From Theionarchaea archaeon (GTDB taxonomy: Archaea > Methanobacteriota_B > Thermococci > Methanofastidiosales > SZ-28-30), in assembly GCA_018992685.1 (NCBI GenBank), contig JACVGT010000019.1:1-64000 (forward strand): a DNA stretch of 64,000 nucleotides, written 5' to 3'. Both the position numbers and the translations under genes were made by a program. The notes under the pieces were generated by a model that did not search any database, was not told the origin of the DNA, and saw nothing but the letters and a program-made list of their open reading frames with translations. Numbering within the stretch: position 1 is the stretch's first letter; each line of letters begins with the position of its first letter. This document shows, piece after piece, positions 41,395-60,080 of this stretch.

Positions 41395-43314
41395 CTAGTC
41401 TTTCTTCTTTACCATGTACCCAATGGCAAGTCCGACTATCAGGGCAACTATTCCAATTACAATCAGTGTCGTGGTGGACGTACCACCAGCTCCAGCTTCT
41501 CCGCCTTCTACCGTTACCTGTTTCTCAATGATGTAGTAGCGGTATCCTGCCGTGTCCATCAATTCTCGTGCCTTGGCCAGGTCATACGGGTCTGGTGCAA
41601 TGTTGGTGTTGAAGGCCCATGAGGGAACAGCAACAGGGTTCCGTCCGGGTACACCGTAGCCACCCAACAGGTTGTCCACAATTCCCTGTCTGTCAATACA
41701 GGAGGAAATGGCCTGTCTCACGTACTTGTTGGCCAGGTATGGGTTGCGGCAGTTGAAGTGCAGGTGCTGGTAGCCGAACTGCTCTGAAGTCCACAACTTG
41801 ATGCCGGGAGTAGCTTCGAGATCCTCACCAATGGCTGTCAAGTTGTAGTAGGTGTCCATCATGTCGATTTCGCCAGTTTCCAGGGCAACACGGGCTGCCT
41901 CTCTCTCGGGTATCAATTTCAGCACAAAGAAGTCGCATCCTGCTTCTGGGAGACCATACTTTGAACCCCAGTAGTTGGGATTCTTCTTCAACTTCCAGTA
42001 CTGGTCAGCTTCCCACGAGTCAAAGATGAAGGGTCCAGAACCAATGACGGTTTCTCCCCTGTTGACGTCAGACTCCATCCACTTGGTAGCAGCTTCTGCT
42101 CCTGTTATAGGAATATCACCATAGAGGTGCTTGGGCAGAATGTTGGTGTCACAGTATCTGAGCCAGGCAGCGTGGGGCATTCCGACATACACTCTCAGTG
42201 TGTACTTGTCAACGATTTCTGATCCACCATAGACATCTCTGAATGTTCCATATCCCTGGAAGGCAGTATCTGGGCTGACACAGGCATCAAAGGACCACTT
42301 GATATCTTCGCTTGTCATTTCCACACCATCGTGGAACATGATGCCTTCTCTGATCTTAATGTCGAAGTATTCTGGGAAGACTACAGGTTCAGCGAGCTTG
42401 GAACTGACATTACACTTGTTGACATCAGGGGCCATAGCCTCAATTGAAGCATCGTCCAGCATGCTGGGGGCAAACACAATAGTAGGTCCTTCTGTTGTAG
42501 AATCTGCCAGCAAGGGTGACATGTTCAGGTTATCGTCGTTCTGCCACAGTGTCTGGAAAATCTGCTGGTTGCAGTAGTATCCATACACTGAGTTCCATCT
42601 CCAGACCAGCATTCCCTCAACAGCTGCAGGTGTACCATAGACAATGGTGTCTTTTCCAGGAATTGACCAGGACGCAGCATCATAGTTCTGTGTCCACAGC
42701 AATCCACTGAATCCTTCAAAGGTGTCTATTGAGGCCCACATGTTGAGTGGGATGTACACCACACAGTACGGCTGTTCATCTGCAACAATCTCCTGGAATC
42801 TCCACAGGTATTCCTTTCTCTTTGCCTGATCAATTTCGACTCGTGCTTTAGCCAGCATCTCGTCAGCTTCCGGGCAGTACCAGAATGTCACGTTGTTACC
42901 TATGGGGGTCATTGCAGAAGAGTGGAATATGTCAAAGGGATCAGGGTCTACGCCCACTGACCAGCCGAACGAAGAAATGTCGAATCCATCTTCAGAATAG
43001 GATTTTCCGTAGTAGTTGTTGAACTCCCTGTTGATCAGGTCTCCGAACTCCAGCAACTTGAAGTCAGCCTGAATGCCGATCTTGGGCATCTCAAGGTTGA
43101 CAGCCTGGGTGTACTGCTCTCTGACCTTGTTCCCGATAGGAGCAATCTGCGTAATCGAAAAGAACGGTGGGTACTTGGAATAATCCTCAGTAAAGGGAAC
43201 CTTCGTGATCTCCTGTTCCTGAGCAATCGCAGTAGTTCCGAATAAAGAAAGTACCAAAGAAGTCAAGAGAACAATCGACAGCACCATTGAGACTTTTCTT
43301 GTTTTTACATTCAT
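41395..43314 (-). CDS. Circularly permuted family 5 solute-binding protein (system 2)
   Basis: Binding protein of 639 residues with a signal peptide (about 8-31). Residues about 50-205 (IGIQADFKLLEFGDLINREF, DISSFGWSVGVDPDPFDIFH, RFQEIVADEQPYCVVYIPL) match what is normally the C-terminal lobe. Residues about 222-590 match the normal N-terminal and middle parts (IREGIMFHDGVEMTSEDIKW, SGPFIFDSWEADQYW, CRNPYLANKYVRQAIS, KARELMDTAGY). The order is thus rotated against OppA1. A glycine-rich linker, helix and KKKD tail anchor it. AGGAGG precedes ATG 43314. It is the first gene of Opp2 and presumably feeds OppBCDF2. Confidence 0.85.
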   Translation of the reverse strand: MNVKTRKVSMVLSIVLLTSLVLSLFGTTAIAQEQEITKVPFTEDYSKYPPFFSITQIAPIGNKVREQYTQAVNLEMPKIGIQADFKLLEFGDLINREFNNYYGKSYSEDGFDISSFGWSVGVDPDPFDIFHSSAMTPIGNNVTFWYCPEADEMLAKARVEIDQAKRKEYLWRFQEIVADEQPYCVVYIPLNMWASIDTFEGFSGLLWTQNYDAASWSIPGKDTIVYGTPAAVEGMLVWRWNSVYGYYCNQQIFQTLWQNDDNLNMSPLLADSTTEGPTIVFAPSMLDDASIEAMAPDVNKCNVSSKLAEPVVFPEYFDIKIREGIMFHDGVEMTSEDIKWSFDACVSPDTAFQGYGTFRDVYGGSEIVDKYTLRVYVGMPHAAWLRYCDTNILPKHLYGDIPITGAEAATKWMESDVNRGETVIGSGPFIFDSWEADQYWKLKKNPNYWGSKYGLPEAGCDFFVLKLIPEREAARVALETGEIDMMDTYYNLTAIGEDLEATPGIKLWTSEQFGYQHLHFNCRNPYLANKYVRQAISSCIDRQGIVDNLLGGYGVPGRNPVAVPSWAFNTNIAPDPYDLAKARELMDTAGYRYYIIEKQVTVEGGEAGAGGTSTTTLIVIGIVALIVGLAIGYMVKKKD

Positions 43315-43324
43315 ATCTTTTCTA

Positions 43325-43340
43325 CCTCCTTTGATCGGTA
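43325..43340 (-). promoter_or_regulatory. Ribosome-binding region of permuted binding protein 2, complementary to leaders of its paralogues
   Basis: The mRNA reads TACCGATCAAAGGAGG. Its exact complement lies in the leader of the gene at 58179 (58095-58110), and a 19-nt match with one mismatch lies in the leader of the gene at 55922 (55832-55850). Confidence 0.75.
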
Positions 43341-43362
43341 TTGTATCCACGTACAGGGAAAG

Positions 43363-43379
43363 GCTTATAAACCTTTCGG
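43363..43379 (-). promoter_or_regulatory. Promoter of Opp2 operon
   Basis: Minus strand CCGAAAGG then TTTATAAGC; predicted start near 43342, leader of about 28 nt holding little more than the SD. Confidence 0.75.
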
Positions 43380-43385
43380 TTTCAG

Positions 43386-43452
43386 TAGTATATACTATCT
43401 TAAGTCGTAGCTAAAGCCAATAGTAGCATGCTACATTATATAATAGCTATTA
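43386..43452. promoter_or_regulatory. Three palindromes upstream of Opp2 promoter (operator candidates)
   Basis: TAGTATATACTA (43386-43397), GTAGCATGCTAC (43423-43434) and TAATAGCTATTA (43441-43452) are perfect 12-bp palindromes just upstream of the BRE/TATA. Half-sites resemble AGTA/TACT, also repeated at the promoters of the two paralogues at 55.7 and 58.0 kb. Confidence 0.6.
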
Positions 43453-43563
43453 CCTTAAATAGTAAATTGAAGATTCTGGATTGGCTGCTTTTTACCTGGG
43501 CGGGCCGAACTCGGGCTTTTGCAGATAATCAAAAAAGAAACGCCGAAAAAATGAGAAACAAAG

Positions 43564-43752
43564 TCAGAATACGATGACAACTCCCATTTTCTCCAACAAG
43601 AAATATATACAGATCAGAAAGATAACAATCAGCCCCAAAATGAACAGCAGGGTGACTTTCTCTTTCGAATTCTTGTAATCTCTAGCGAAAATACCAATCA
43701 GTAGCACATCGCACACAATCGCTACCAGGAGTAGCAAAGCCTGTACATTCAT
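43564..43752 (-). CDS. Small two-helix membrane protein
   Basis: Protein of 62 residues: a first helix (about 3-22), a charged turn (RDYKNSKEKV) and a second helix. AGGAGG lies 6 nt before ATG, and a TATA-like GTATTTATG is upstream near 43823. It has the look of an accessory membrane peptide; no family recognised. It lies next to, but is transcribed separately from, the Opp2 promoter region. Confidence 0.6.
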   Translation of the reverse strand: MNVQALLLLVAIVCDVLLIGIFARDYKNSKEKVTLLFILGLIVIFLICIYFLLEKMGVVIVF

Positions 43753-43883
43753 CTAATTCCTCCTTTTCTAATCAGCATTTCGTAAGTTTTCAGATGTGGT
43801 GGTGTGTCCTCGTCACGTCGACATAAATACTTTTGGATAGGGTTCCTGTGTTACATAATCAAATCGTACTAATACATCATTTA

Positions 43884-43913
43884 CAGCATAGTAGGAATTT
43901 TCTTACTATGCTG
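43884..43913. repeat. 30-bp near-perfect palindrome
   Basis: CAGCATAGTA at the left and TACTATGCTG at the right are perfect inverted repeats; inner bases also pair (one G-T), leaving almost no loop. It holds AGTA/TACT half-sites and lies about 75 bp from an IS relic, so it could be an operator or an IS-derived end. Confidence 0.5.
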
Positions 43914-43988
43914 CAACTTCTATCTTGAAGAAATGATTATCATAAGAGGATTTCGTATGCTTTTCTTTCACTGCACTGCGTGTGCAAT

Positions 43989-44078
43989 CATCCATTGTCA
44001 AGCATAATTCTCCCTTTCTTACCAGCATCTTGTTATGTTCTTTCCAATTTCTGGTCATAAAACCATCTGGTTTTCTAC
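43989..44078 (-). pseudogene. IS5-type transposase relic, N-terminal fragment 1
   Basis: Minus strand from ATG 44058 encodes TRNWKEHNKMLVRKGELCL then loses similarity near 43989. The stretch is about 90% identical to the start of the relic at 45510-45722, including upstream bases (AACCAGATGGTTTTAT). Remnant of an insertion sequence. The rest of 43753-44197 holds the palindrome above and no other feature I can support. Confidence 0.6.
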
Positions 44079-44197
44079 AGTGACAATTCCTGGATGGACC
44101 ATCTCACAGAACAGGAAGAAGACTTTCCATTTGCGAGGAATTCAAGAAATTCTCTGGAAAAGCAAATCTTACTCTCCCTGTAGGACATCTCTCAGAG

Positions 44198-45133
44198 TCA
44201 GTACTGCCTTTCCAGTCTCATTATCTGTACAAAGTGCACGGCTACTAAAGTCAGTAGAGAAAGAACAAACACGATGAAAGTGTCAGAAATGATGTCATGT
44301 ATGTGGACAAAATTTGTGTCAATGCCTGTGTAGAGAATTTCGCCCGAGAAACTCGCTCTATCCAGTACGTGGAGGGTATCATTGAGGGCATACACGACTT
44401 CAGCGTCCATGATTGCTCCTGCAAAATCCTTCTGACTCTTGCGCACCTGGTAGTTATGATACGCTGTCTCCGCCATGAATATGTAGGACTCCGACAGGAC
44501 TTCACTATACGTATTTCTCAATGCGGCTTTCTCTGCATGATCTATAGTATTCTGGTAGCACTTGTCAAGAGGCAGTTCCTCCATAGTTTCAATAGAGGAG
44601 AACAATTCATTCAAGAATGCTTCATAGTGATCTGATTTCACAAAGTCGTCCCAGGAACTGGAATTTTCGCCACCATAATATTTCTGCAGTATTCTGCAGT
44701 ATTCTCCAGCATGACCTGAAATTCCTATTGCGTCAGGACCACAGGCCCACTTGTCACACACACGAAAATAGGCACCCAGAATCTTTGACTTGACCTCCAA
44801 TAGTGTACACTCACGAGCCTGCGTTCGGATTGTTCCACTGAAGAGTTTTTCTTCACTTTGAAGGTATTCGTGAAAATCCAGAAGATAGATGGAGTAGAGG
44901 GCACTTGTCTCTTTCTGGAAGTAATCAGAGAGCTCTTCTGGGTCATTTTTGTCAAGGGCTTCCCAATCTCTCTCTAGAATGTCTGAATTTTCTCTGACTA
45001 TCTCTTTCAGGTCAGATATGTTTTCTTCAATCTGTCCTTCGAATTGTTTCTGTCTATAGTAAGAGGTAGCCACCAGCCCTACAAGAAAAAGAACAATCCA
45101 AAGATAAATCAGCTCTTTTCGATTTTCTTTCAT
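44198..45133 (-). CDS. Membrane protein with large exported helical domain
   Basis: Protein of 311 residues with an N-terminal helix (about 8-26), a long helical, acidic domain with several cysteines (REC, FRVCDKWACGPDA, EYC, DKCYQ) and a second helix near the C-terminus (FIVFVLSLLTLVAVHFVQI). The topology suggests an outward domain held at both ends. Family not recognised. AGGAAGACG-type SD precedes ATG 45133; it follows the truncated gene by 1 bp. It lies between two IS relics. Confidence 0.6.
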   Translation of the reverse strand: MKENRKELIYLWIVLFLVGLVATSYYRQKQFEGQIEENISDLKEIVRENSDILERDWEALDKNDPEELSDYFQKETSALYSIYLLDFHEYLQSEEKLFSGTIRTQARECTLLEVKSKILGAYFRVCDKWACGPDAIGISGHAGEYCRILQKYYGGENSSSWDDFVKSDHYEAFLNELFSSIETMEELPLDKCYQNTIDHAEKAALRNTYSEVLSESYIFMAETAYHNYQVRKSQKDFAGAIMDAEVVYALNDTLHVLDRASFSGEILYTGIDTNFVHIHDIISDTFIVFVLSLLTLVAVHFVQIMRLERQY

Positions 45134-45134
45134 A

Positions 45135-45509
45135 TTAGAACGTCTTCCTCCATGCATCTTTAAATATGCCACGTATCAACGACTCTATGACTTCAGTACA
45201 CATGTCTTTCCATGCATCATTTCTGATGAAACTTTTGGTAATAGTCAAATAAGTCCGGTTCTCTTTTTGTGAAAGATAATCGCTTAGAGCATATCCCATA
45301 AGATATCCATTCCCCCAGTCTTTGGCCTCATCATCAGACATTTCAAGACTCCGTGTGAAGTTATAAGCCTCCTTATAGTCACGTAGTCGCGGTGTTTGCG
45401 AACCAAATGCTCCTAAAGTAACTGATGCTGGTTGGCTAAAATCAAAAAGAAATCCTACAGCAGAGACAGTCTGCTGAGGTAAGTCCCTCTGTATACTGCG
45501 ACAACTTTC
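45135..45509 (-). pseudogene. 5'-truncated gene, fused to transposase relic
   Basis: An open frame of about 124 codons begins right after the TGA that ends the transposase fragment and runs in the same frame to 45135, with protein-like composition throughout (TLGAFGSQTPRLRDYKEAYNF, KDWGNGYLMGYALSDYLSQ, SFIRNDAWKDMCTEVIES). The only ATG is at 45341, leaving 68 residues. I read it as a gene that lost its start through an IS-linked rearrangement; translation from 45341 may still occur. It is followed at once by the gene at 44198. Confidence 0.55.
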
Positions 45510-45722
45510 TCAAAGTGCCTTTAACTGTCTATAGGACACGCTGAACACTGTCTTCGTCAGGGCAGTATATGCTATGAATTGAGGAAATGCAAAAGGGCTA
45601 CCTCGCTTGTTCACATTCATCTGCTGAAGTTCTTCATTCCAATATTCAATGAAATCCATTGTCAAGCATAATTCTCCCCTTCTTACCAGCATCTTGTTAT
45701 ATTCTTTCCAATTTCTGGCCAT
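45510..45722 (-). pseudogene. IS5-type transposase relic, N-terminal fragment 2
   Basis: Encodes 70 residues (NWKEYNKMLVRRGELCLTM, WNEELQQMN..KRGSPFAFP, VFSVSYRQL) typical of the N-terminal region of IS5-family transposases. A TGA stops the frame before any catalytic DDE residue, so it cannot be active. The upstream flank (45723-45805) probably holds the element end. Confidence 0.75.
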
Positions 45723-45757
45723 AAAACCATCTGGTTTCCCTATAGTATCCTTCTATT

Positions 45758-45805
45758 GGTTTATGCGTCAAACAAGGTATTTGAAGGCTAAATTGTACAA
45801 CACAG
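45758..45805. repeat. IS end-like repeat, copy A
   Basis: TTATGCGTCAAACAAGGTAT and the following bases recur with about 90% identity over 24 nt at 46748. Position upstream of the transposase relic suggests an IS terminus. Confidence 0.5.
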
Positions 45806-45890
45806 CAGATAGGGTTGAACAGCTAGAGTATGACCATCAGATTGGGGTAATCTTTATAAGGTATTGATAACCAACTCCCATGGTGATCTC

Positions 45891-46322
45891 ATAAAACAGA
45901 TTATGGCTCTACTGTGTTGCTTTCTGGTACTCGGCTGTACCATTGGTGTGAACCTTGATACACCTGAAAACACAGTGAACACATGGGTTCGATCGTACAA
46001 CGATCGGGATGTTGAGGGTATATATATAACACTGTCAAGAGCATACATCATGGCCAATGGCGGCGAGGAACGAGTGAAATCGATCATCGGGACCATGCTG
46101 GAAGAGGCTGAGGAATCAGAAATTTCGTTTACTGTGAAGGGGATTGGATTGCTTGCTTTGTCGACGGAACAGCCGGGATTGTCATCAGGCAGAACCATAT
46201 ATCTCGCGAGAATGGACAGGAAGTTTACAGAGGAAGGGGAGAAAAGAGTCGAAGAAGTCTTCTGGAATTTCGCTGTAGTAAAAGAAGACGACAAGTACAA
46301 GATCGAAGATTTCTGGGACTGA
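45891..46322 (+). CDS. Small lipoprotein, possible ATA start
   Basis: Protein of about 143 residues with lipobox LVLGC and a mature part that may be NTF2-like (PENTVNTWVRSYNDRDVEGIY, then YKIEDFW at the end). TATA (TCTTTATAAG, 45850-45859) predicts a start site near 45880. GGTGAT (45882-45887) stands exactly 3 nt before ATA 45891, the spacing used by ATG starts here, and starting there gives a proper basic n-region (xKQIMALLCCFLVLGC). ATG 45903 would lack a positive charge and be 15 nt from the SD. An upstream TTG precedes the predicted transcript start. Confidence 0.6.
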   Translation: MKQIMALLCCFLVLGCTIGVNLDTPENTVNTWVRSYNDRDVEGIYITLSRAYIMANGGEERVKSIIGTMLEEAEESEISFTVKGIGLLALSTEQPGLSSGRTIYLARMDRKFTEEGEKRVEEVFWNFAVVKEDDKYKIEDFWD

Positions 46323-46745
46323 AAAGAGACGGATTTCTTATTCTTTTTGCACTTTCTTTCGCTGCCGTTATACGTCTCTACGCTTTCCACACATGGCCCA
46401 TATAGCATTTTAGGCAAGGCTGGTGCAGGAATGGTAAGCACGCATTAGGATTGCTATGCAGGTTCTGGAACAGGAGGTGCCTCGTGGTGTTCACAGACAG
46501 AACGCACTCCTTGTGCTTCTAACAAGACTACCAGAATCCACAGAGAGTCATATTTCGCGTGAAGGAATGAAAATGTGAATTTGAACCCTCAGTTACCAGT
46601 ACTCTCTTTCTCAGGTTCTCTAACCTCATTGTTGAGTCAAATTCCCTAACAGCTTGCTTCTCCCGTTTGACGTCCTCTCACCACGGTGCCTTTCAGATTT
46701 CTGGTCACACTAGTCTGGGTTCTCCGTGTCTAATTTCCCGACCAT
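46323..46745. other. Intergenic region without recognised gene
   Basis: After a T-rich probable terminator (46330-46360) I find no open frame with a start signal, no RNA gene and only degenerate AT-rich sequence. It may be further IS-derived debris. Confidence 0.35.
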
Positions 46746-46793
46746 TTTATGCTTCAAATAAGGTATTTGAATGAAAAATCGCGTAGTACACCA
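46746..46793. repeat. IS end-like repeat, copy B (solo)
   Basis: TTATGCTTCAAATAAGGTAT is the counterpart of the repeat at 45758. No transposase fragment accompanies it. It lies just upstream of the BlaI-like gene promoter. Confidence 0.5.
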
Positions 46794-46837
46794 CCAGAGC
46801 ACAAACCTTTAAAAGCTTACGACAACAGGTAGTAGTA

Positions 46838-47224
46838 ATGAATATCAAAAGACTTGGTCCTCTAGAACGAACAATAATGGAAGTCTTCTGGGAGAAGAAA
46901 AAAGCTGATGCACGGGAGGTCTATTCAGAACTCAACAGAGAAAAACAAATCGCCTACACCACCATCAATACTACTCTCACCCGTCTTCACAAGAAGAAAT
47001 TGCTCAACAGAAAGCTGGTGAAGGGAAGAGGAGGATACCGTTATGTGTACACCATTGCCAAGTCAAAACCAAAATACATTGATCAGGTCATACGCTCTAC
47101 CATAGATGATCTCCTGATGCGGTTCGGAAATCGAACCATAAGTTACTTCTCAGAAAGTCTCAACCTGAATGAAGAGGATGTGGAGAAGCTAAGAGTTCGT
47201 CTGAAGGAGTTGTCTCATGAATGA
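46838..47224 (+). CDS. BlaI/MecI-family transcriptional repressor
   Basis: Winged-helix repressor of 128 residues. GPLERTIMEVFWEKKKADAREVY and YTTINTTLTRLHKKKLLNRK are the BlaI/MecI/CopY DNA-binding pattern, followed by a helical dimer domain. In bacteria such proteins are cleaved after activation of a BlaR1-type sensor, encoded next here with an 8-bp overlap. TATA (CTTTAAAAG, 46807-46815) implies a nearly leaderless message; GGTAGTAGTA just before ATG resembles the AGTA half-sites near the permuted binding-protein genes. Confidence 0.85.
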   Translation: MNIKRLGPLERTIMEVFWEKKKADAREVYSELNREKQIAYTTINTTLTRLHKKKLLNRKLVKGRGGYRYVYTIAKSKPKYIDQVIRSTIDDLLMRFGNRTISYFSESLNLNEEDVEKLRVRLKELSHE

Positions 47225-48554: not shown

Positions 48555-48758
48555 GACTGTACTGAACGTGCAGGGAGAGTCACGGTATTCTAAAGGTATC
48601 CAGGGGTGTCTCGCACGCTCATGTGGCAATCCAGCACCTGGAATTTTCCTTGAATATATTGTTATATGTGTCCTCAGTCAGTCCCTGTGTGCCTAAGACC
48701 TGACGGTGGGACCTTCTCAATCAAAAAGCATTTATGTGGAATTATGTGAGAGACCACA

Positions 48759-50465
48759 ATGATCAGTGTTGAAGATCTCTCCTTTCAATACAGCACGGGT
48801 GAATCTCCGGTGCTAAGTAAAGTCACCCTGGTTGTTCCTCAGGGCGGCTACCTCGCGCTGGTTGGCCCTTCAGGTTCAGGAAAGAGTACTCTCTGTTTCA
48901 CCATGAATGGGATCATCCCCCATTCCATTACGGGTATTCTGTCGGGAAATGTTGTTGTTGACAGGTTGAATACGCGAGAACACCATGTGCACGAGCTTGC
49001 TGAAAAAGTGGGCATTGTTCTTCAGAATCCTGAATCCCAGCTCTTTGCCATGAGTGTGGAGGAAGAACTGGCTTTTGGTCCCGAGAATCTGGGTCTGCCC
49101 CGAGAAGAAATACTGGCCCGCATTGAGGACGTCCTAACCATTATTGGAATTGCAGACAGGGGGCGGTTTCCTTTCTCTCTATCGGGAGGAGAGAAACAGA
49201 AGCTTGCAATTGCTTCTATTCTGACCATGAACCCCTCTCACCTTGTGTTAGACGAACCAACCTCTCAACTGGATCCCCGGGGAAGAAAGAGTGTGTATGA
49301 TGTCCTGGACAAGCTTCACGCTGGCGGAATGTCCATCATACTCATTGAACATAATACAGAGCACATTGCAGAGCGTGCCCAGCAGGTGCTGGTGATAAAA
49401 GATGGCTCTGTCGTTGCCTCGGGATCGCCAAGAGATGTATTTTCTCAGGTGGAGACCATGAAAGCTCTGGGCATACAGGTTCCTGGGGTTGCTGAAGTCA
49501 CCTATGAGCTTCACAGGAGAGGCATCATACAAAGAATAGCTGTGACCCTCGAAGATGCGGTGTCACTGCTTGAAAATCTCAGACCCAAGGAATTCACTTC
49601 TCAGAGCCTGAAGACAGAATCAACCCTCACGAGAGTGGGGAGTTCTTCACCATCTTCACGTACGGAACCTGCTGTTGAGGTGAAGAATCTGTCCTTTCAG
49701 TACGGCGATGTCCCCGTCCTCAATAATGTTTCTCTCACTATTGGACACGGAGAGATTGTAGCAATCATTGGACAAAATGGATCTGGAAAGACAACGCTGG
49801 TCAAGCATTTCAATGGATTGCTGCGTCCGAAGGAAGGAGACATTTTCATCTTTGGAGAATCTGTTAAGGACAAGAGTGTTGCTCAATTAGCCCGGAAGGT
49901 AGGATATGTTTTTCAGAACCCAGATCATCAGATCTTTGCAGATAGTGTGTTCGAAGAAGTGGAATTCGGCCTCAAGAACCTTAGTGTCCCTCTGGAAGAG
50001 AGAGCAGAACGCGTGGCTGCGGTTCTGAAGCAGACTGACCTTTTCAGATATAAGGATACACACCCTACCAGCCTGTCGGGTGGGGAAAAACAGCGGCTGG
50101 TCATCGCGTCTGTCCTGGTAATGAACCCCCAGATTCTCGTCCTGGATGAACCAACGACTGGCCTGGATCTCAAGAGCTCTCGCTCAATAATCGACCTGGT
50201 CAGAGCCCTTCACCAGCAGCATCGCACTGTAATCCTGGTGACTCATGACATGAACCTGGTGGCAGAGATGGCACACCGTATACTCATTCTCAAAGACGGG
50301 ACCCTGGCTGCTGAAGGAAGCCCGCATCAGATCTTTTCAGATGAAGGCCTGCTCAGTGATAACTTCCTGGAAGCACCGCAGATCGCCAGACTCAGCAGTC
50401 GTCTGGGATATGGAACGTGTCTGAACATAGAAGAGTTTCTCCACAAACTGGAGGGTACCCTATGA
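48759..50465 (+). CDS. ECF transporter ATPase, two nucleotide-binding domains fused
   Basis: Protein of 568 residues equal to EcfA1 and EcfA2 in one chain. First domain (about 1-240): GPSGSGKST, SLSGGEKQK, LVLDEPTSQLD. Second (about 305-540): GQNGSGKTT, SLSGGEKQR, LVLDEPTTGLD. It powers uptake of a vitamin or metal through a substrate-binding S subunit, which is not in this window. A TATA-like GCATTTATG about 27 bp before ATG suggests a leaderless message. Confidence 0.92.
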   Translation: MISVEDLSFQYSTGESPVLSKVTLVVPQGGYLALVGPSGSGKSTLCFTMNGIIPHSITGILSGNVVVDRLNTREHHVHELAEKVGIVLQNPESQLFAMSVEEELAFGPENLGLPREEILARIEDVLTIIGIADRGRFPFSLSGGEKQKLAIASILTMNPSHLVLDEPTSQLDPRGRKSVYDVLDKLHAGGMSIILIEHNTEHIAERAQQVLVIKDGSVVASGSPRDVFSQVETMKALGIQVPGVAEVTYELHRRGIIQRIAVTLEDAVSLLENLRPKEFTSQSLKTESTLTRVGSSSPSSRTEPAVEVKNLSFQYGDVPVLNNVSLTIGHGEIVAIIGQNGSGKTTLVKHFNGLLRPKEGDIFIFGESVKDKSVAQLARKVGYVFQNPDHQIFADSVFEEVEFGLKNLSVPLEERAERVAAVLKQTDLFRYKDTHPTSLSGGEKQRLVIASVLVMNPQILVLDEPTTGLDLKSSRSIIDLVRALHQQHRTVILVTHDMNLVAEMAHRILILKDGTLAAEGSPHQIFSDEGLLSDNFLEAPQIARLSSRLGYGTCLNIEEFLHKLEGTL

Positions 50466-51253
50466 TTCAGCAGACCATGTTTATTCGAAAAGAATCCTTT
50501 CTTCACTCTTTGGATCCCAGAACAAAGCTATTCTTATCCATTGGCCTGTTTCTCGTGGGTGTCCTGTTCACTGATTACAGAGTGCTGATGGCCCTCTTTG
50601 CAGGCGAGGTTATCATTCTCAGAGTGGCAGCCAGAATTCCTTTTTCGAAGTTATTCCCGTACCTGAAACTGATTCTTCCTCTTGTGGTTATGGCACTGCT
50701 GATATGGCCCCTCTTCCAGAGAACGGGGACAGTTCTGGTATCCTACTGGAAGGTTATCATCACGAAGGAGGGAATCCAGATGGGAATTGCCATGTCCTTG
50801 AGACTGCTGTCTTTGATCGTGGCTACGTATTTGCTCCTCATGACCACCGAGCAGAGAGATCTGGTTCTTGCTCTCGTTAAATCCGGATTGCGGTATGATT
50901 TCGGGTTAATGTTGGCCATTGCTCTGAGCAAGGTTCCTGCTCTGGCAGGGATTGCCTTGACCATCATGGATGCGCAGAAGGCACGAGGGCTCGAACTCGA
51001 AAAGGGAAATATCGTTGAAAAAGTGAGAAAGTACATACCTATTCTGATTCCATTGATTATTTCAGCTATAAGGCTGGCTGAAGCGTTGTCCATTGCAATT
51101 GATTCTCGAGCATTTGGGAGAGGGAGGCGCACCTACCTGAGAGAGCTTCACTTCACGATGAAAGATGCGCTGGTCACTGGTATGGCTGTGGTGGTGATTT
51201 CAGTATGTATGGGAATGCGTGCTGCAGGATATGGTGTTATGGAATTGCCGTGA
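50462..51253 (+). CDS. ecfT: ECF transporter T subunit
   Basis: Membrane protein of 263 residues with five to six helices and the coupling helices AQKARGLEL and SRAFGRGRR that contact the ATPases. ATG 50462 overlaps the ATPase stop and has GGAGGG upstream. With the fused ATPase it forms the energising module. Confidence 0.9.
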   Translation: MIQQTMFIRKESFLHSLDPRTKLFLSIGLFLVGVLFTDYRVLMALFAGEVIILRVAARIPFSKLFPYLKLILPLVVMALLIWPLFQRTGTVLVSYWKVIITKEGIQMGIAMSLRLLSLIVATYLLLMTTEQRDLVLALVKSGLRYDFGLMLAIALSKVPALAGIALTIMDAQKARGLELEKGNIVEKVRKYIPILIPLIISAIRLAEALSIAIDSRAFGRGRRTYLRELHFTMKDALVTGMAVVVISVCMGMRAAGYGVMELP

Positions 51254-52059
51254 TGGCTGTCGGAACCGTATTGATGTCGGCTGCACTGGAAAACCCGGTG
51301 GAGGGGTGGGCTGTCCTCATGGAAACCAATGATTTCCCTGGAGGGTACACTGATCTCCCTCTGGGCTTCGTGGATGTTGAACGAATGGAGACCCTGCTCC
51401 AGTACCACGGGTGGCAGAAATCACACATGCTACTAAGAAGAGATACTATTACGACGCAAGCAGTGAAGGAGGGTATTGCATACCTGCAGAAAGCAGATCA
51501 GAATGACATTGCTTTGTTCTACATTTGCTCTCACGGAGGATATCTGAGGCATGATCTCCAATGGAACAGTCTCATGCCTCCGCTCTGGGAGCGTGTTACC
51601 AGTGAAAAGAGAGTATTGATTATAGATTCCTGCTATGCAGGTTCCTTTCTGCCGGAAAGCGAGAGACCATACATCGGGATTGGCTCAGTTTCGGCTGACG
51701 AGCTTGGGTGGGCAGGCCTGCCAGAAGAGAACCTGCCTATTACCGGGTTCGTGTTCACCTACTACTTCTGCCAGTCCACCCTGGGAGTATCAGTTGAAGA
51801 GGGATTTGGAAGGGCCAGTCCCCAGGTACAGCAGTACATGCAGGATGTGGTCTATCCGGCTTTCAAGGAAGTCTATCCTCCCGAGCACTACAATGTCTAT
51901 GATCCTCATCCTGTGTTGAAGGATTCGTATCCAGGTGAGCTCTCCCTGTGGGTTGATGAGGGTGGAGTTTCTCTCTCTCAGGTTCTGGCTGTCCTGATGC
52001 TTCTCCTCCTGGGAATCATCCTTGCCCTGGATAGAAAAGGAATCTGTTCATGTGACTAG
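51253..52059 (+). CDS. Caspase-like (clan CD) membrane-anchored cysteine protease
   Basis: Protein of 268 residues with a caspase-haemoglobinase core: YICSHGGYL holds the catalytic His (H94) and LIIDSCYAGSF the catalytic Cys (C127). A C-terminal helix (QVLAVLMLLLLGIILAL) and cysteine-containing tail follow, and an N-terminal signal-like segment is short, so the domain may be exported. Start ATG overlaps the ecfT stop (TGATG), so it is co-translated with the ECF transporter, an odd pairing. Substrate unknown; a peptidase or a nonenzymatic relative are both possible. Confidence 0.7.
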   Translation: MAVGTVLMSAALENPVEGWAVLMETNDFPGGYTDLPLGFVDVERMETLLQYHGWQKSHMLLRRDTITTQAVKEGIAYLQKADQNDIALFYICSHGGYLRHDLQWNSLMPPLWERVTSEKRVLIIDSCYAGSFLPESERPYIGIGSVSADELGWAGLPEENLPITGFVFTYYFCQSTLGVSVEEGFGRASPQVQQYMQDVVYPAFKEVYPPEHYNVYDPHPVLKDSYPGELSLWVDEGGVSLSQVLAVLMLLLLGIILALDRKGICSCD

Positions 52060-53210: not shown

Positions 53211-53214
53211 TACC

Positions 53215-53997
53215 CTATTTGGGGAGTCGTCCCAGTTCCACCACTCCTTTGGAAACAATGCGCTGTACCGTTGTTCTGGATCCGATCTTCAGGCTGCCAT
53301 CACACATGACTTTCTGAAGAACGCTGTCAGATCCCACGTAGATATCTCCTTTACAGTATACATCTTCTTTTACTTCACAGAAATTCCCTATTTCCAGCTG
53401 GACTTCTATGTTCACCGGCGAATTCATAATATTTCTGTCTCCAAGAGATGCATCCTTACCTTTTATAGAACCCTTGAACTCACACTCGGCTTTGCTCTTC
53501 ACCGTTGAAGCCACCACATCCCCATACACCATATTTTTGCTACCAAGGTGGACTTCTTCTCCTGCTTCAATATTCCCTTTTATAATGACTCCATCTCCGA
53601 GGTGGATGCTGCGGCTGGTTTTCAGCCCTCCTGTAAGAACCAGATCATCAGAGAGGCTAATGTCTGAGTCTCTGGCCACAATGGCAAAGGTTTTCAGGGA
53701 AATCTCATCCTTTTTCTGCTGTATTACCTGTTGAAGTTCGGATATTTCAAGATTCTTTTCTTCAATAATCTGTTTCAGCTGGCGTTCAGTTTCTGCAAAA
53801 TTTTCCACCTTGTCCAGGAGAGCCTGGTTATCCTCAGTCAGCCTTTCGGCTACCTCTCGTAACTTGGACACTCCGCCGTATTCCTTCCTGTAGGTTTCCA
53901 ACTCCCTGGTGATACGGGAGTTTTCGTCCCGCAATTCGGTGGCCATCCGTCTTAGAGATTCTATAACCTCATCTTTTCCTTTGTCAAAGAGCCCCAT
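53215..53997 (-). CDS. Coiled-coil plus bactofilin-like polymerising protein
   Basis: Protein of 260 residues. Residues about 10-105 form a coiled coil (RRMATELRDENSRITRELETY onward). From about 115 to the end there are short beta turns with G and V/I at regular intervals (LTGGLKTSRSIHLGDGVIIKGNIEAGEEVHLG, VYCKGDIYVGSDS, DGSLKIGSRTTVQRI), as in bactofilin/polymer-forming beta-solenoids. It may build filaments. GGAGGT precedes ATG 53997; the longer reading is unlikely. Confidence 0.72.
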   Translation of the reverse strand: MGLFDKGKDEVIESLRRMATELRDENSRITRELETYRKEYGGVSKLREVAERLTEDNQALLDKVENFAETERQLKQIIEEKNLEISELQQVIQQKKDEISLKTFAIVARDSDISLSDDLVLTGGLKTSRSIHLGDGVIIKGNIEAGEEVHLGSKNMVYGDVVASTVKSKAECEFKGSIKGKDASLGDRNIMNSPVNIEVQLEIGNFCEVKEDVYCKGDIYVGSDSVLQKVMCDGSLKIGSRTTVQRIVSKGVVELGRLPK

Positions 53998-54157
53998 GCT
54001 GTTCAACCTCCATTCTTTTTTTCTACAGCATATATATAGCTTTTTCCATTGCCATTGCCGGACTGGTGAAGACCACATCCATTGTCAAGTCAGGCTCTGT
54101 TCTTCATACGTGGCTGAGCAGAAAAGTCGTTTTCTTTCGCCAATGCGAAAATAAAGT

Positions 54158-54619
54158 TCACATTGAGGATTTTCTCTCAGTCAGCTCGAACAAGCAGTAG
54201 CTATCTCCGGCAGCCTGACAGGAGGTCTCCCTGTACATGATGTCTTCTTTACTGTAATATCTGGAAACCAGCCCCTCGAAAAACCCAGCCAGAAAATGAC
54301 ACACGGGGTCATTACTTTCCGCATAGCCAGAAGCAATCGGAGAATCAGTAACCTGGAACTGAAATTCTTCAGGATGAAAGGTAGCCCTCACAAAGCCAGT
54401 GGCTTCCAGCTCGGCCAAAAGATCCTGGATGGTGGCGCCTTCATCTTCTGATTGCATGATTTCCATGTACTTGTCGCCAAATTCCTTTCCTGCAGAGTAG
54501 AGAACTTTGGCCGCAGAGGGCCCAATGGAATCCTCCAGCGTTTTCTGGATTTTCATGAAAATGCTGTTAAGCACCACTAGCTTCCTCTTTTTTTCCACCG
54601 GCAGCAATTCTTTCATCAT
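54158..54619 (-). CDS. V4R (4-vinyl reductase) domain protein
   Basis: Protein of 153 residues with the V4R pattern: GPSAAKVLYSAGKEFGD, PVCHFLAGFFEGL and C-terminal ETSCQAAGDSYCLFEL. V4R domains bind small hydrophobic ligands or help regulate by sensing them. CTTTATAAAG at 54637-54646 is about 25 bp before ATG, so leaderless. Confidence 0.82.
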   Translation of the reverse strand: MMKELLPVEKKRKLVVLNSIFMKIQKTLEDSIGPSAAKVLYSAGKEFGDKYMEIMQSEDEGATIQDLLAELEATGFVRATFHPEEFQFQVTDSPIASGYAESNDPVCHFLAGFFEGLVSRYYSKEDIMYRETSCQAAGDSYCLFELTERKSSM

Positions 54620-54742
54620 ATATCCTTTCAATCAGGACTTTATAAAGGTATAGGAGGCGAGCAAAGAGGTAGTAGACCTGCCTTCTTGCTGACATTTCAA
54701 GATCTGCTGCTCCGGTGTCTGCCATCACGCTGAGGAGCCACA

Positions 54743-55537
54743 CTACGAGCCAAACCAGGCATCTAGCCTCCTCTGCCCAGGCTGGGCCTTCCTGTACGGG
54801 ATGTTCAGAAGGTCCTTCAACATTCGTGCGTTGCTGATTGCCTGCCCTCGGGGGTGATTATTGAACTGGAGATACAAAGTCTCGGTTGAGAGACGTATTT
54901 CTTGCACTTTGGGTACCCACTCCTTCAATTCTTCTTCTGAGTATTGATAGTCATACCAATGCGATGGGTTCCTTCCATGCCATCTAACATATCCAAGATC
55001 TGATGTGATTCGTACGAGAGGTTCCATTTTCACAGAATCTGTCACAACAAAGGCGGCGTGGTCATCTCTGAGAAAGGAAACGTCAATTCTCGAGTCCCAG
55101 GAGGTGTGGCGGAACTCTACCGCAAACCGCACATTGTCAGGTAGAAAGTCCAAGAACTCCTTCAGGTTATCTTCATACTCTGTAGAGAACTTTGGAGGCA
55201 ATTGAATGAGGAAACAGCCCAGCTTTCCTGAATCTATGAGAGGAAACATCAAAGAATAGAATTCCTTGAACACCGGTTCTGAATTCTTGAGAAATCTCTT
55301 GTGAGTAATCTCTTTGGGGATCTTTGCGGTGAAGACAAAATCATCAGGTACCTTCTTGTTCCAGGAAATGACCGCGTACTTATTGGGTAGGGCATAGAAA
55401 GTGGAGTTAATCTCTACCAGATTGAATTCCCTTGCATAAAACTCTAACATCTTTCCCTTCTCAATGCCTTCAGGGTAAAACGGGCCAATCCAATCATCAT
55501 AGCTCCAGCCACTCGTTCCTATGTATAAGGTTCCCAT
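54743..55537 (-). CDS. DUF72 (YecE-like) protein
   Basis: Protein of 264 residues with a TIM-barrel-like fold of the DUF72 family: IGTSGWSYDDWIGPFYPEG at the start, FNLVEINSTFYALP, FAVEFRHTSW and YLQFNNHPRGQAISNA near the end. Function unknown. GGGAACC-type sequence before ATG is a weak SD. Confidence 0.88.
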   Translation of the reverse strand: MGTLYIGTSGWSYDDWIGPFYPEGIEKGKMLEFYAREFNLVEINSTFYALPNKYAVISWNKKVPDDFVFTAKIPKEITHKRFLKNSEPVFKEFYSLMFPLIDSGKLGCFLIQLPPKFSTEYEDNLKEFLDFLPDNVRFAVEFRHTSWDSRIDVSFLRDDHAAFVVTDSVKMEPLVRITSDLGYVRWHGRNPSHWYDYQYSEEELKEWVPKVQEIRLSTETLYLQFNNHPRGQAISNARMLKDLLNIPYRKAQPGQRRLDAWFGS

Positions 55538-55720
55538 AGTAGGAGTTCTTCTGATACCAAAAAAATGTTACGGTTCCTGTGCTGTAATGAGCCCCTGTGA
55601 TACTTCTGCTCCTGTTCTGCTGAGCCCCCATATCGATGCAAGGCCTCACATCACACATCTTTTGTTCCCACATCGAAGGGACGTACTTCCAGCATCCGAG
55701 CTCAATCATCCACGTGTCAA

Positions 55721-55736
55721 CCGAAAGTCTTATAAG
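55721..55736 (+). promoter_or_regulatory. Promoter of permuted binding protein 3
   Basis: CCGAAAG then TCTTATAAG; start predicted near 55758, giving a leader of about 165 nt. Bases 55538-55720 upstream hold no recognised gene. Confidence 0.65.
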
Positions 55737-55741
55737 TAGTA

Positions 55742-55787
55742 GTTATTATAATAACAAGTAGCTACTACTAAAAGTAGTATCTACTAC
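55742..55787. promoter_or_regulatory. Palindrome cluster at promoter of permuted binding protein 3
   Basis: GTTATTATAATAAC (55742-55755), AGTAGCTACT (55757-55766) and GTAGTA-TC-TACTAC (55774-55787) lie around the predicted transcript start. They share AGTA/TACT half-sites with the Opp2 and 58.0-kb promoters. Confidence 0.55.
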
Positions 55788-55804
55788 GGAAAATCGGAAC
55801 TCCA

Positions 55805-55914
55805 ATACCGTCTGCTGGTTGAAGATGTCGGCCTCCTTGGATCGGTATTGCAGACACTGAACCCGATCAACATCACCTCCAGCAGATGGTATACAGAATG
55901 GAGACCAAAGGAGG
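55805..55914 (+). promoter_or_regulatory. Structured mRNA leader with anti-SD bulge (gene at 55922)
   Basis: P1 pairs 55805-55818 with 55879-55892 (14 bp, one G-U). P2 pairs GATGT 55824-55828 with ACATC 55870-55874. P3 pairs GATCGG 55840-55845 with CCGATC 55863-55868. The left strand between P2 and P3 is a bulge containing CCTCCTT (55832-55838), complementary to the gene's own SD AAGGAGG (55908-55914). Folding was done by eye. Confidence 0.6.
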
Positions 55915-55921
55915 AAGAAAA

Positions 55922-57811
55922 ATGAACACAAGAAAGATCTCAGTCGTATTGTCTGCCGTGTTACTTGCTTCTTTAACTCTATCCCTATTCGGAACCAGTA
56001 CTGTTGCACAAGAACAGCAGTGGAAAAAAGTGCCAACTACTGAAGACTATTCCAATTACCCCGCATTCTTTTCGATCACGCAGATTGCCCCCATTGGGAA
56101 CAAGGTTAGGGAACAGTATACACAGGCAGCCAACCTCGAAATGAGAAAAATCGGCATAGGGGCTGACTTCAGAATGCTGGAGTTCGGAGACCTGATCAAC
56201 AGGGAATTCAACAACTACTATGGCAGCACATTTGCTGAAGATGGATTCGACATTTCTTCATTCGGCTGGTCAGTGGGAGTAGACCCCGATCCCTTTGACA
56301 GTTTCCACTCTTCTGCAATGACCCCCATAGGTAACAACATTACATTCTGGTACTGCCCGGAAGCTGATGAGATGCTCTCTCTCGCACGAGTTGAACTTGA
56401 CCAGCAAGCCAGAAAGGAATACCTGTGGAGATTCCAGGAGATTGTTGCGGATGAAAAGCCCTACTGTGTGGTGTATGTGCCACTGCTCATCTGGGCCTCC
56501 ACAGATCAACTGGAAGGCTTTAATTCACTGATGTGGCAGCAGAACTTTGATGCTGTAACCTGGTCAATTCCAGGAAAAGACACCGTTGTCTATGGTACAC
56601 CCGCAGCTGTCGAGGGTATGCTGCCCTGGAGATGGAACTCAGTGTATGGACACTATCTTCACAACCAGATATTTGAGACATTGTGGACCGTTGCTCCAGA
56701 CCTCACCATTGAATCAAGAATTGCTGACTCTGCAACAGAAGGACCTTCAATCGTATTTGCCCCTAGCACTCTTGATGATGCTTCAATTGAGGCTCTCGGA
56801 CCTGATGTCAAGAAGTGTGTGGTGAACACCAAACTCGCAGGTCCTGTTGTGTTCCCCGAATACTACGACATCAAAATCAAAGAAGGCATCATGTTCCACG
56901 ATGGCGTGGAGATGACCAGTGAAGATGTCAAGTGGTCAATGGATGCCTGTGTCAGCGCAGACACCGCCTTCCAGGGATGGGGTACCTTCAGAGATGTATA
57001 TTCCAGCTCAGAAATCCTTGACAAGTACACACTGAGAGTGTATGTCGGGATGCCCCACGCAGCATGGGTACAGTATTGTAATCCATATGTATTGCCCAAG
57101 CATATCTATGGTGGCATTCCTATAACAGGAGCAGAAGCTGCCACCAGCTGGATGGAATCTGACATCAACAGAGGAGACACTGTCATTGGTTCAGGACCCT
57201 TCATGTTTGATTCCTGGGAAGCTGACCAGTTCTGGAAGATGAAGAAGACACCTGACTACTGGGGTTCTGCATATGGATATCTTGAAGCAGGATGCGACTT
57301 CCTGATACTGAAATTGATACCCGAGAGAGAGGCAGCCCGTGTTGCCCTGGAAACTGGAGAAATTGACATCATGTGCTGCTACTACCAGCTCGGAGCAATT
57401 GCTCAGGACCTGGAAGCTACCCCCGGCCTAGTGTTGTGGACCACAGAAGACTTCGGCTACCAGCACCTGCACTTCAACTGCCGCAACCCGTACCTTGCCA
57501 ACAAGTACGTGAGACAGGCCATTTCCTCCTGTATTGACAGACAGGGAATTGTGGACAAGTTGCTGGGTGGTTATGGTGTGCCTGGTGCCAACCCTGTTGC
57601 CGTTCCCTCGTGGGCCTTCAACACCAACATTGCACCAGACCCATACGATCTGGACAAGGCACGAGAGTTGATGGACACGGCAGGATATCGCTACTACGTC
57701 CTAGAAAAGACGGTGAGCACAGGCGGAGAAGAGGAAGCTGGAGGCGGATTCTGTCTGGGAACCCTGTTTATAGCCCTTATGAAGACTAATCATCTATTCA
57801 GGAGAGAGTGA
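55922..57811 (+). CDS. Circularly permuted solute-binding protein 3, altered C-terminus
   Basis: Binding protein of 629 residues, close relative of the genes at 41395 and 58179 with the same rotated lobe order and no permease genes beside it. The linker GGEEEAGGGFCLGTLFIALM is shared with the 58179 copy, but the reading then turns to KTNHLFRRE and stops, so the anchor helix is cut to about 10 residues. It may be released or poorly anchored. AAAGGAGG lies 7 nt before ATG 55922. Confidence 0.83.
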   Translation: MNTRKISVVLSAVLLASLTLSLFGTSTVAQEQQWKKVPTTEDYSNYPAFFSITQIAPIGNKVREQYTQAANLEMRKIGIGADFRMLEFGDLINREFNNYYGSTFAEDGFDISSFGWSVGVDPDPFDSFHSSAMTPIGNNITFWYCPEADEMLSLARVELDQQARKEYLWRFQEIVADEKPYCVVYVPLLIWASTDQLEGFNSLMWQQNFDAVTWSIPGKDTVVYGTPAAVEGMLPWRWNSVYGHYLHNQIFETLWTVAPDLTIESRIADSATEGPSIVFAPSTLDDASIEALGPDVKKCVVNTKLAGPVVFPEYYDIKIKEGIMFHDGVEMTSEDVKWSMDACVSADTAFQGWGTFRDVYSSSEILDKYTLRVYVGMPHAAWVQYCNPYVLPKHIYGGIPITGAEAATSWMESDINRGDTVIGSGPFMFDSWEADQFWKMKKTPDYWGSAYGYLEAGCDFLILKLIPEREAARVALETGEIDIMCCYYQLGAIAQDLEATPGLVLWTTEDFGYQHLHFNCRNPYLANKYVRQAISSCIDRQGIVDKLLGGYGVPGANPVAVPSWAFNTNIAPDPYDLDKARELMDTAGYRYYVLEKTVSTGGEEEAGGGFCLGTLFIALMKTNHLFRRE

Positions 57812-57988
57812 CACTATTTGAAATCTCCTGATTGAGCCAAAAATCCCATAAAGATTTTATCCTTCAACCTAAGAACTCAACCTGTCAACATTTCTTATCC
57901 AGTATTACCAATAGTGTCATGACATATGCACCTTTCATCCCACTACCATAGCAGCAAGTAGCTCCGGGAGAAAGAACATTAATTCCAA

Positions 57989-58005
57989 GCGAAAGTTTTA
58001 TAAAG
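57989..58005 (+). promoter_or_regulatory. Promoter of permuted binding protein 4
   Basis: GCGAAAG then TTTTATAAAG; start predicted near 58027 and leader about 150 nt. The stretch 57812-57988 has only a T-poor spacer and no gene I can support. Confidence 0.65.
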
Positions 58006-58008
58006 CAC

Positions 58009-58047
58009 AGTAACTACTAAATTCAAGTAGTTACTATTTTAAATAGT
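58009..58047. promoter_or_regulatory. Palindromes at promoter of permuted binding protein 4
   Basis: AGTAACTACT (58009-58018) and AGTAGTTACT (58026-58035) are perfect inverted repeats with a 7-nt spacer. ACTATTT-T-AAATAGT (58033-58047) overlaps the second. All lie across the predicted start site. Confidence 0.6.
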
Positions 58048-58070
58048 ATCTACAACTGAGACAATCCCGG

Positions 58071-58171
58071 ACCGTTCACTGGATGAAGATGTCACCTCCT
58101 TTGATCGGTACTCTACATTCGATCCGACATCTCATCTGGTGGATGGTGCGGGAAATGGAGACTAAAGGAGG
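58071..58171 (+). promoter_or_regulatory. Structured mRNA leader with anti-SD bulge (gene at 58179)
   Basis: P1 pairs 58071-58085 with 58133-58147 (15 bp, four G-U). P2 pairs AGATGTC 58087-58093 with GACATCT 58126-58132. P3 pairs GATCG 58103-58107 with CGATC 58120-58124. The 9-nt left bulge ACCTCCTTT (58094-58102) faces one base and is complementary to the SD AAAGGAGG (58164-58171). Same architecture as the 55.8-kb leader with different P1 sequence. Confidence 0.65.
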
Positions 58172-58178
58172 ATAAAAA

Positions 58179-60080
58179 ATGAATACGAAAAAGATTTCGG
58201 CAATCCTGTCAGTTGTGCTCGTTGCTTCTCTTGTGATATCCCTTTTCGGGACAACTACTGTCGCTCAAGAGGAAACCATGACACAAGTACCGTTCACCGA
58301 GGACTATTCCAAGTACCAGCCATTCTTTTCGATTACGCAGATTGCTCCCATCGGGAACAAGGTCAGAGAACAGTACACCCAGGCCGTCAACCTTGATATG
58401 CCAAAGATCGGCATTAAGGCTGACTTCAAGCTGCTGGAGTTTGGAGACCTGATCAACAGGGAGTTCAACAACTACTATGGTAGTACATTCGCTGAAGACG
58501 GATTCGACATCTCTTCATTCGGCTGGTCGGTGGGTGTAGACCCCGATCCCTTTGACATATTCCACTCTTCTGCAATGACCCCCATAGGTAACAATGTGAC
58601 GTTCTGGTACTGCCCTGAGTCTGACGAGATGCTGGCCAAGGCACGAGTCGAATCAAATCAGGAAACCAGAAAGGAATACCTGTGGAGATGGCAGGAAATT
58701 ATTGCAGATGAACAGCCCTACTGTGTGGTGTATGTGCCACTGCTCATCTGGGGCTCAACAGATCAGCTGGAAGGCTTTGACCCACTGTTGTGGCTGCAGA
58801 ACTATTCTCTGGAAACATGGGAAATTCCAGGAAAGGATACCATTGTCTATGGATCACCTGCGGCTGTCGAGGGTATGCTGCCCTGGAGATGGAACTCAGT
58901 GTATGGTCGTTATCTGCATTCACAGATCTTTGAGAGTCTGTGGCTTGTGGATAACAACCTGGTGATTTCACCCCGACTTGCAGAATCAGCAACAGCAGGG
59001 CCTACCATTGTGTTCGCCCCCAGCGCTATTGATGATGCTTCAATTGAGGCTCTGGCCCCTGATGTCAAAAAGTGCAAGGTGAATGACAAGCTCGCAGAGC
59101 CTGTCGTATTCCCCGAGTACTATGACCTCAAGATCAGGCAGGGCATCATGTTCCACGATGGCGTGGAGATGACCAGTGAAGATGTCAAGTGGTCAATGGA
59201 TGCTGTCATCAGTGCAGACACTGCCTTCCAGGGATGGGGTACCTTCAGAGACATATATGACAGCTCTGAGATTATTGACAAGTACACGGTAAGAGTATAT
59301 GTCGGAATGCCCCACGCAGCATGGGTTCTGTACTGCAACCCAACTGTACTGCCCAAGCATGTCTATGGTACTATCCCCATAACAGGAGCAGAAGCTGCCA
59401 CTAGCTGGATGGAGTCTGACATCAACAGGGGAGAGAACGTCATTGGTTCTGGACCCTTCATGTTTGATTCCTGGGAAGCTGACCAGTTCTGGAAGATGAA
59501 GAAGACACCCAACTACTGGGGTGTCAAGTATGGTGTTCCCGACCCACAATTCGAATACTTCCTCATCAAGCTGATACCCGAGAGAGAAGCTGCACGTGTC
59601 GCTCTGGAAACTGGAGAAATTGACATCATGGACACGTACTACCAGCTCGGAGCAATTGCTCAGGATCTGGAAGCTACTCCTGGGTTGAAGCTGTGGACCA
59701 CAGAAGACTTCGGCTACCAGCACCTGCACTTCAACTGCCGCAACCCGTACCTGGCCAACAAGTACGTGAGACAGGCCATTTCCCACTGTATTGACAGACA
59801 GGGAATTGTGGACAACCTGTTGGGTGGCTACGGTGTACCCGGTGCTAACCCTGTTGCCGTCCCGTCATGGGCCTTCAACACCAACATTGCACCAGATGCA
59901 TATGACCTGGTCAAGGCTCGGGAAATGATGGACAAGGCAGGATACCGCTACTTCATCGTTGAGAAAGCAGGCGCAGCTGGTGGAGAAGAGGAAGCCGGAG
60001 GCGGACTCTGTCTAGGAACCATGTTCATAGCCCTTATGGTCTTGGGCGGAAATCTGCTCTATCTCAAGAAGAAAGAGTAA
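58179..60080 (+). CDS. Circularly permuted solute-binding protein 4
   Basis: Binding protein of 633 residues with signal peptide (about 8-30). As in the 41395 copy, the usual C-terminal lobe comes first (about 50-205) and the usual N-terminal and middle parts follow (about 220-590). C-terminus: GGEEEAGGGLCLGTMF, a full membrane helix and KKKE. It is an orphan, so it may feed OppBCDF2 or a distant permease. AAAGGAGG lies 7 nt before ATG. Confidence 0.85.
   Translation: MNTKKISAILSVVLVASLVISLFGTTTVAQEETMTQVPFTEDYSKYQPFFSITQIAPIGNKVREQYTQAVNLDMPKIGIKADFKLLEFGDLINREFNNYYGSTFAEDGFDISSFGWSVGVDPDPFDIFHSSAMTPIGNNVTFWYCPESDEMLAKARVESNQETRKEYLWRWQEIIADEQPYCVVYVPLLIWGSTDQLEGFDPLLWLQNYSLETWEIPGKDTIVYGSPAAVEGMLPWRWNSVYGRYLHSQIFESLWLVDNNLVISPRLAESATAGPTIVFAPSAIDDASIEALAPDVKKCKVNDKLAEPVVFPEYYDLKIRQGIMFHDGVEMTSEDVKWSMDAVISADTAFQGWGTFRDIYDSSEIIDKYTVRVYVGMPHAAWVLYCNPTVLPKHVYGTIPITGAEAATSWMESDINRGENVIGSGPFMFDSWEADQFWKMKKTPNYWGVKYGVPDPQFEYFLIKLIPEREAARVALETGEIDIMDTYYQLGAIAQDLEATPGLKLWTTEDFGYQHLHFNCRNPYLANKYVRQAISHCIDRQGIVDNLLGGYGVPGANPVAVPSWAFNTNIAPDAYDLVKAREMMDKAGYRYFIVEKAGAAGGEEEAGGGLCLGTMFIALMVLGGNLLYLKKKE

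Follow-up and report, generated by a model that had tools for sequence, protein, structure and literature searches.

Three solute-binding proteins of family 5 (Opp/Dpp type) in a Theionarchaea archaeon are confirmed by their sequences to carry a circularly permuted mature domain, as an earlier note on the same DNA had proposed. The window, by which we mean the whole stretch of 64,000 nucleotides that was analysed (contig JACVGT010000019.1, positions 1 to 64,000), holds their open reading frames (ORFs) where that note had placed them, with copy A on the reverse strand (41395-43350) and copies B (55886-57811) and C (58179-60080) on the forward strand. Very probably, all three are exported binding proteins of Opp/Dpp-type ATP-binding cassette (ABC) importers, in which the bilobed domain was permuted without displacing the signal peptide or, for copies A and C, the membrane anchor.

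The swapped order was found in four independent sequence comparisons, by Pfam, phmmer, BLASTP and rotation with a hidden Markov model (HMM). Each copy has two above-threshold HMMER matches to Pfam SBP_bac_5 (PF00496) in reversed succession, of which the main one breaks off at position 278-279 of the 368-position profile, with scores of 192-206 bits vs a gathering score of 32.4, whereas OppA1 (33564), the protein of usual order suggested as a built-in control, covers profile positions 1-352 in a single stretch. SBP_bac_5 was the sole binding-protein family in Pfam that the copies matched, and homology to cluster B (MglB) was not found. In a phmmer search against the PDB, residues 301-590 of copy C corresponded to residues 65-345 of B. 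subtilis AppA (1xoc; i-Evalue 2.1e-27) and residues 49-214 to AppA 359-516 (4.3e-14), and BLASTP against OppA1 gave the same swap in A, B and C (E ~1e-17 to 1e-19 and 4e-11 to 3e-9). An order test was based on an HMM of length 546 built from 13 normal-order proteins, and the rotation was done after trimming of the signal peptide and anchor, because HMMER splits the alignment at the inserted ends and the untrimmed scan is uninformative for most proteins. Unrotated copy C matched model positions 392-530 at residues 59-201 and 49-377 at residues 215-590; after it was cut at the central junction and rejoined at AGY, a single match to positions 51-530 was obtained (271 bits). Rotated copies A and B gave a single continuous match as well (264 and 257 bits; about 116-530 of 546), and 55 normal-order proteins in a pool of 108 family 5 ORFs were contiguous in this test. 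Both segments, and hence the complete family 5 domain, are thus present in all three copies, rotation restores one alignment as in a circular permutant, and the canonical N-to-C order is absent from all of them, which is why we file them as a permuted variant and not as ordinary family members.

The three copies share one plan. Copy C consists of a signal peptide and short spacer (residues 1-48), the old C-terminal segment (49-214), a junction reading W-EIPGKD-TIVYG, the old N-terminal segment and middle up to AGYR at 590, and about 43 residues of linker and hydrophobic anchor; the join is likewise short in copy A (W-SIPGKD-TIVYG). At the nucleotide level, the old C-terminal segment and the old N-terminal segment with the middle occupy 43164-42667 and 42666-41542 in copy A, where linker and transmembrane anchor follow, 56066-56563 and 56564-57688 in copy B, and 58323-58820 and 58821-59948 in copy C, with linker and anchor at 59949-60077. 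Copy A has 639 amino acids if it starts at MNVK (43314) and 651 if it starts at a GTG codon. The cut follows directly on the helix ending KARELMDTAGY(R), at residue 589-603, and the N-terminus of the domain opens with FFSITQ at residue 49-63, both numbers varying with the copy and its start codon, so that the cut and its continuation are borne out in residue coordinates as first described. The signal peptide is N-terminal in all three, and linker and membrane anchor are C-terminal in two (A and C), vs copy B, whose hydrophobic anchor is truncated (57740-57811; its end reads FIALMKTNHLFRRE, followed by a stop). Elsewhere, a short, decayed fragment with stops was seen that resembles a junction region of the copy A type (L075, about 2013-2108, reverse strand; contig C1:189979-190110; SIDSAEGFSGLLWTQSYDAASCSIPRKDASVH).

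The same cut at the AGY loop, which we call class I, recurs in haloarchaea, in further archaea (groups f2, f20 and f42), in Alphaproteobacteria and in Bacillota-type bacteria; the search for archaeal homologues of the same order, advised in the earlier note, was therefore fruitful. In tblastn searches of plasmids, haloarchaeal and alphaproteobacterial proteins align to the window protein in one piece that ends just past AGY, and a Halalkalicoccus query was covered to at least 80% in 51 plasmid records. The HMM order test found class I proteins at 15 of the plasmid loci fetched, the rest being normal-order controls, while plasmid matches outside this set were judged by coverage alone. A Halobacteroidaceae genome (G436) has a single class I protein (G436:C1:7958-9487) beside normal-order paralogues, all 10 other family 5 proteins fetched from it being of normal order, and in its phylum 10 of 249 genomes match at E <= 1e-90, the fetched ones being class I. 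Since few candidates were scored per genome, such frequencies are lower bounds. We also observed a permuted copy very like those of the window, truncated by the edge of its contig, in a genome of another family (L020 / L071, G003:C113), which may reflect recent transfer or contamination.

Two further cut points were found in archaea. Class II (10 fetched proteins of group f42, a single archaeal class in which 47 genomes were searched) is cut between NPxY and the strand entering lobe II, at the crossover from lobe I to lobe II; model positions 240-535 come first and 56-247 last, and rotation turns matches of 119+58 bits into one of 196 and 132+69 bits into 206. In five class II proteins (L125-L129), the C-terminus is extended by anything from several hundred to about 2000 further residues. 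Class III, from three genomes of the same class as group f42 that appear to be of Thermococcales type, is cut in the NYG loop before the NYG-Y-N-E helix, so that the last ~95 domain residues directly follow the signal peptide: residues 34-129 align with positions 443-540 of 4pfu, the Thermotoga mannoside-binding protein, and residues 140-570 with its positions 4-433.

Close relatives of either order provide before/after pairs. Once rotated, the class III proteins L073, L103 and L104 are 78-81% identical to normal-order L045, with the signal peptide unmoved and, in L103 and L104, the T-rich linker and anchor unmoved too. Normal-order L115 is 58-60% identical to class I L083 and L067, again with the anchor unmoved, and normal-order L072 is 49% identical to class I L036. 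The displaced segment, found at the opposite end of the normal relatives, is by itself 51-53% identical in L036/L072 and L083/L115 and 59-62% in class III/L045. Chance similarity and assembly error are excluded by these pairs. As a separate observation, the T-rich linker of L073 (2930-3063) ends without the hydrophobic anchor of L103 and L104, possibly through a frameshift in the repetitive linker. The window proteins themselves have orthologues of the same plan in the metagenome-assembled genome (MAG) Theionarchaea SZ_28-30 (L014-L016; 73-95% identity), which brings the permuted copies to six in two genomes, and the ratio of nonsynonymous to synonymous substitution rates (dN/dS) between orthologues is 0.037 and 0.073 over the domain. 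Such low values show that the permuted proteins are functional, and six copies in two genomes, their identity and purifying selection together show that the observed order is no chance result.

Both old termini lie in lobe I in known family 5 structures, and in the permuted proteins they would be joined by the short linker W-S/E-IPGKD-TIVYG, whereas the new termini would lie in an exposed loop between the AGY helix and the next strand, presumably in lobe II, as judged from the structures of DppA, OppA and AppA. From the position of the cut and the known structures, we infer that both tether ends would now be on lobe II, formerly lobe I. Because the cut is inside one lobe, the hinge crossovers would stay at two, and the permuted protein would be expected to fold and bind like its relatives. 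The loop appears tolerant of such a cut, as it has long insertions in normal proteins (~27 residues in the OppA1 sequence). It is tempting to speculate that the permutation is itself adaptive, with the shift of the tether from lobe I to lobe II improving the docking of the anchored protein on the permease, and we consider this possible, though doubtful. In a crude motif scan of the pool for a C-terminal anchor or a lipobox, every class II protein, two of the three distinct class III proteins and nine of class I had an anchor, among them the archaeal f20 and f42 and most of the Theionarchaea proteins of class I, and a lipobox was present in eight class I proteins, in some Bacillota-type ones at the N-terminus; the anchor, moreover, has not moved while the domain was permuted in L115/L083 and L045/L103. 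However, many alphaproteobacterial class I proteins have neither and look untethered, which rules out relocation of the tether as a general cause, the hydrophobic anchor is gone from copy B, and neutral drift after a tolerated rearrangement would fit equally well. Anchoring may thus favour permutation without explaining all cases.

How often the domain was permuted was assessed by aligning rotated sequences with normal ones and building quick trees (104 rows with LG; 77 rows with a C20 mixture) with support from the Shimodaira-Hasegawa-like approximate likelihood-ratio test (SH-aLRT). Class II has one origin (SH-aLRT 100%), and class III, like class II, needs one change on both trees, while class I needs seven changes on the 104-row and six on the 77-row tree, each of them required by branches whose SH-aLRT is 95 or more. 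Approximately unbiased (AU) tests reject a single class I clade (p 8.1e-5 and 2.3e-4). In addition, the closest relative of L036 is a normal-order protein (48.9% identity), against no more than 32.1% for class I proteins outside its own group, and that of the f42 pair is also of normal order (59.9%, against 37.6% for the best-matching class I protein from a different group). In the window group, identities of 31.3% to the best normal match and 28.9% to the best class I match from elsewhere lie too near each other for a decision. Trees, AU tests and best-match identities thus point to class I having arisen several times, or having repeatedly reverted. A single class I origin, followed by horizontal spread between bacteria and archaea and several reversions to normal order, seems unlikely to us. 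It would account for the cut in the same loop in every class I protein and for the nesting of normal-order L115 and L116 within a permuted group, and plasmid location suggests transfer; but one clade is what the AU tests reject, L036 and the f42 pair have far higher identity to normal-order proteins than to the rest of class I, and each exact reversion would be a second rare rearrangement at the same place.

We therefore favour, with a probability of roughly 0.7, the reading that family 5 permutes repeatedly in nature, with at least three cut points and some five or more independent cuts at the AGY loop in archaea and bacteria, giving functional products in which signal peptide and anchor stay in place. 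Each event would be an intragenic rearrangement, in which probably the coding sequence was duplicated in frame and then lost its outer parts, or the segments were swapped in an equivalent way. On the trees, this would have happened several times, at the AGY loop in class I and at two further sites in classes II and III. Four points weigh against this account as a whole: no tandem double-domain intermediate was found among the long ORFs checked (700-2570 amino acids), each of which has one binding-protein domain and otherwise other sequence; the deep branches of the trees are long, and some class I changes could be reversions; an AlphaFold2 prediction made from a shallow alignment of six close permuted homologues reached a mean predicted local distance difference test (pLDDT) score of 28, too low for use; and many alphaproteobacterial class I proteins lack a visible tether.

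It is very improbable that the N-terminal 200 residues are instead a separate, added domain, with the normal C-terminal lobe elsewhere. The N-terminal piece does match less well (54-63 bits for the copies from Theionarchaea and 10-19 bits for Neorhizobium and Salipiger), but it equals exactly the part missing from the AppA alignment (359-516, E 4e-14), rotation gives one continuous match, and close normal-order relatives have the same segment at the other end. A second C-terminal lobe, the finding that the earlier note had named as fatal to its claim, was looked for and not seen, as the ~40-47 residues after AGY are linker and anchor alone and leave no room for one. An assembly or gene-calling artefact (chimeric contigs, or two adjacent genes fused) can be rejected even more firmly, for although several of the assemblies, that of the window included, are of metagenome type, the same order is shared by three paralogues, an independent MAG, plasmids whose records call them complete, and near-complete genomes of few contigs (G043, G491), with purifying selection across the junction.

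Copy A stands at the head of a complete DppBCDF-type operon on the reverse strand, directly followed by a DppB/OppB-type permease (40285-41277; BPD_transp_1, BPD_transp_1_N), a DppC/OppC-type permease (39343-40269; BPD_transp_1, OppC_N), a DppD/OppD-type ATPase (38358-39338; assigned from its translation) and a DppF/OppF-type ATPase with an oligo_HPY tail (37393-38391; domain search). Copies B and C, on the other hand, are tandem orphans without permease or ATPase genes, and OppA1, a family 5 binding protein of normal order (33564-35498, reverse strand), has its own OppBCDF genes at 33495-29659. Between these two Opp-type operons, a reverse-strand gene (35931-37391) encodes a protein in which an exosortase/archaeosortase domain (TIGR04178, 30.6 bits, cut-off 23) follows a beta-propeller-like N-terminus and which may process the C-terminal anchors of the binding proteins. 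Further along, a forward-strand gene for a caspase-like protein (51205-52059) with HGG and DSC motifs and an NF047832 match of 32 bits, below the cut-off, directly follows an ECF-type transporter (48759-51253).

A natural circular permutation is usually a single and ancient event that only structures reveal, and recurrence in a large and much-studied family is the surprising part of the present findings. Since the larger segment accounts for most of what the Pfam and NCBIfam models detect, permuted proteins pass for ordinary binding proteins in annotation and their displaced lobe segment is overlooked; with a rotation-aware search, both domain annotation and substrate prediction for Opp/Dpp systems would change. 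If our reading is correct, the effects of permutation and of tether position could be measured directly in the before/after pairs. Some of the permutations are recent enough for normal and permuted homologues to be 50-81% identical, so that the mechanism, the effect on fitness and the part played by the tether become testable.

The statement of the earlier note that no permuted clade is described holds for family 5, as no report of permutation in family 5, OppA or cluster C was found in the open-access literature (subscription papers lay outside this scope), but it does not extend to other binding-protein families, in which permutants are known. The CIRPIN paper does not mention binding proteins, and no permuted family 5 chain was among the PDB matches listed for five permuted queries. 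Permutation in binding-protein clusters is thus already known, and for family 5 apparently unreported. With the SBP_bac_5 proteins of Opp/Dpp systems (cluster C; AppA, DppA, 4pfu), the proteins described here share homology over the whole domain, operon partners and scores above the Pfam cut-off, and they differ in being permuted, with termini at the AGY loop, the lobe crossover or the NYG loop. Treponema pallidum offers a precedent in TpMglB-2 (Tp0684, 'Type Ic / Cluster Bc'), a tethered sugar-binding ABC protein with a natural permutation, in which the permuted part is poorly conserved in sequence and a fourth hinge crossover is needed; the idea of a link between permutation and anchoring or permease docking was proposed for this protein (PMC4990184). 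It resembles our proteins as a tethered natural permutant for which the same anchoring link was proposed, but it belongs to cluster B, while in family 5 both segments are clearly homologous and several origins and three cuts are indicated. Glycine-betaine- and molybdate-binding proteins are likewise related to each other by circular permutation (CPSARST, PMC2395249), although at the level of structure and with less than 24% identity, whereas here normal and permuted members of one family are up to 81% identical.

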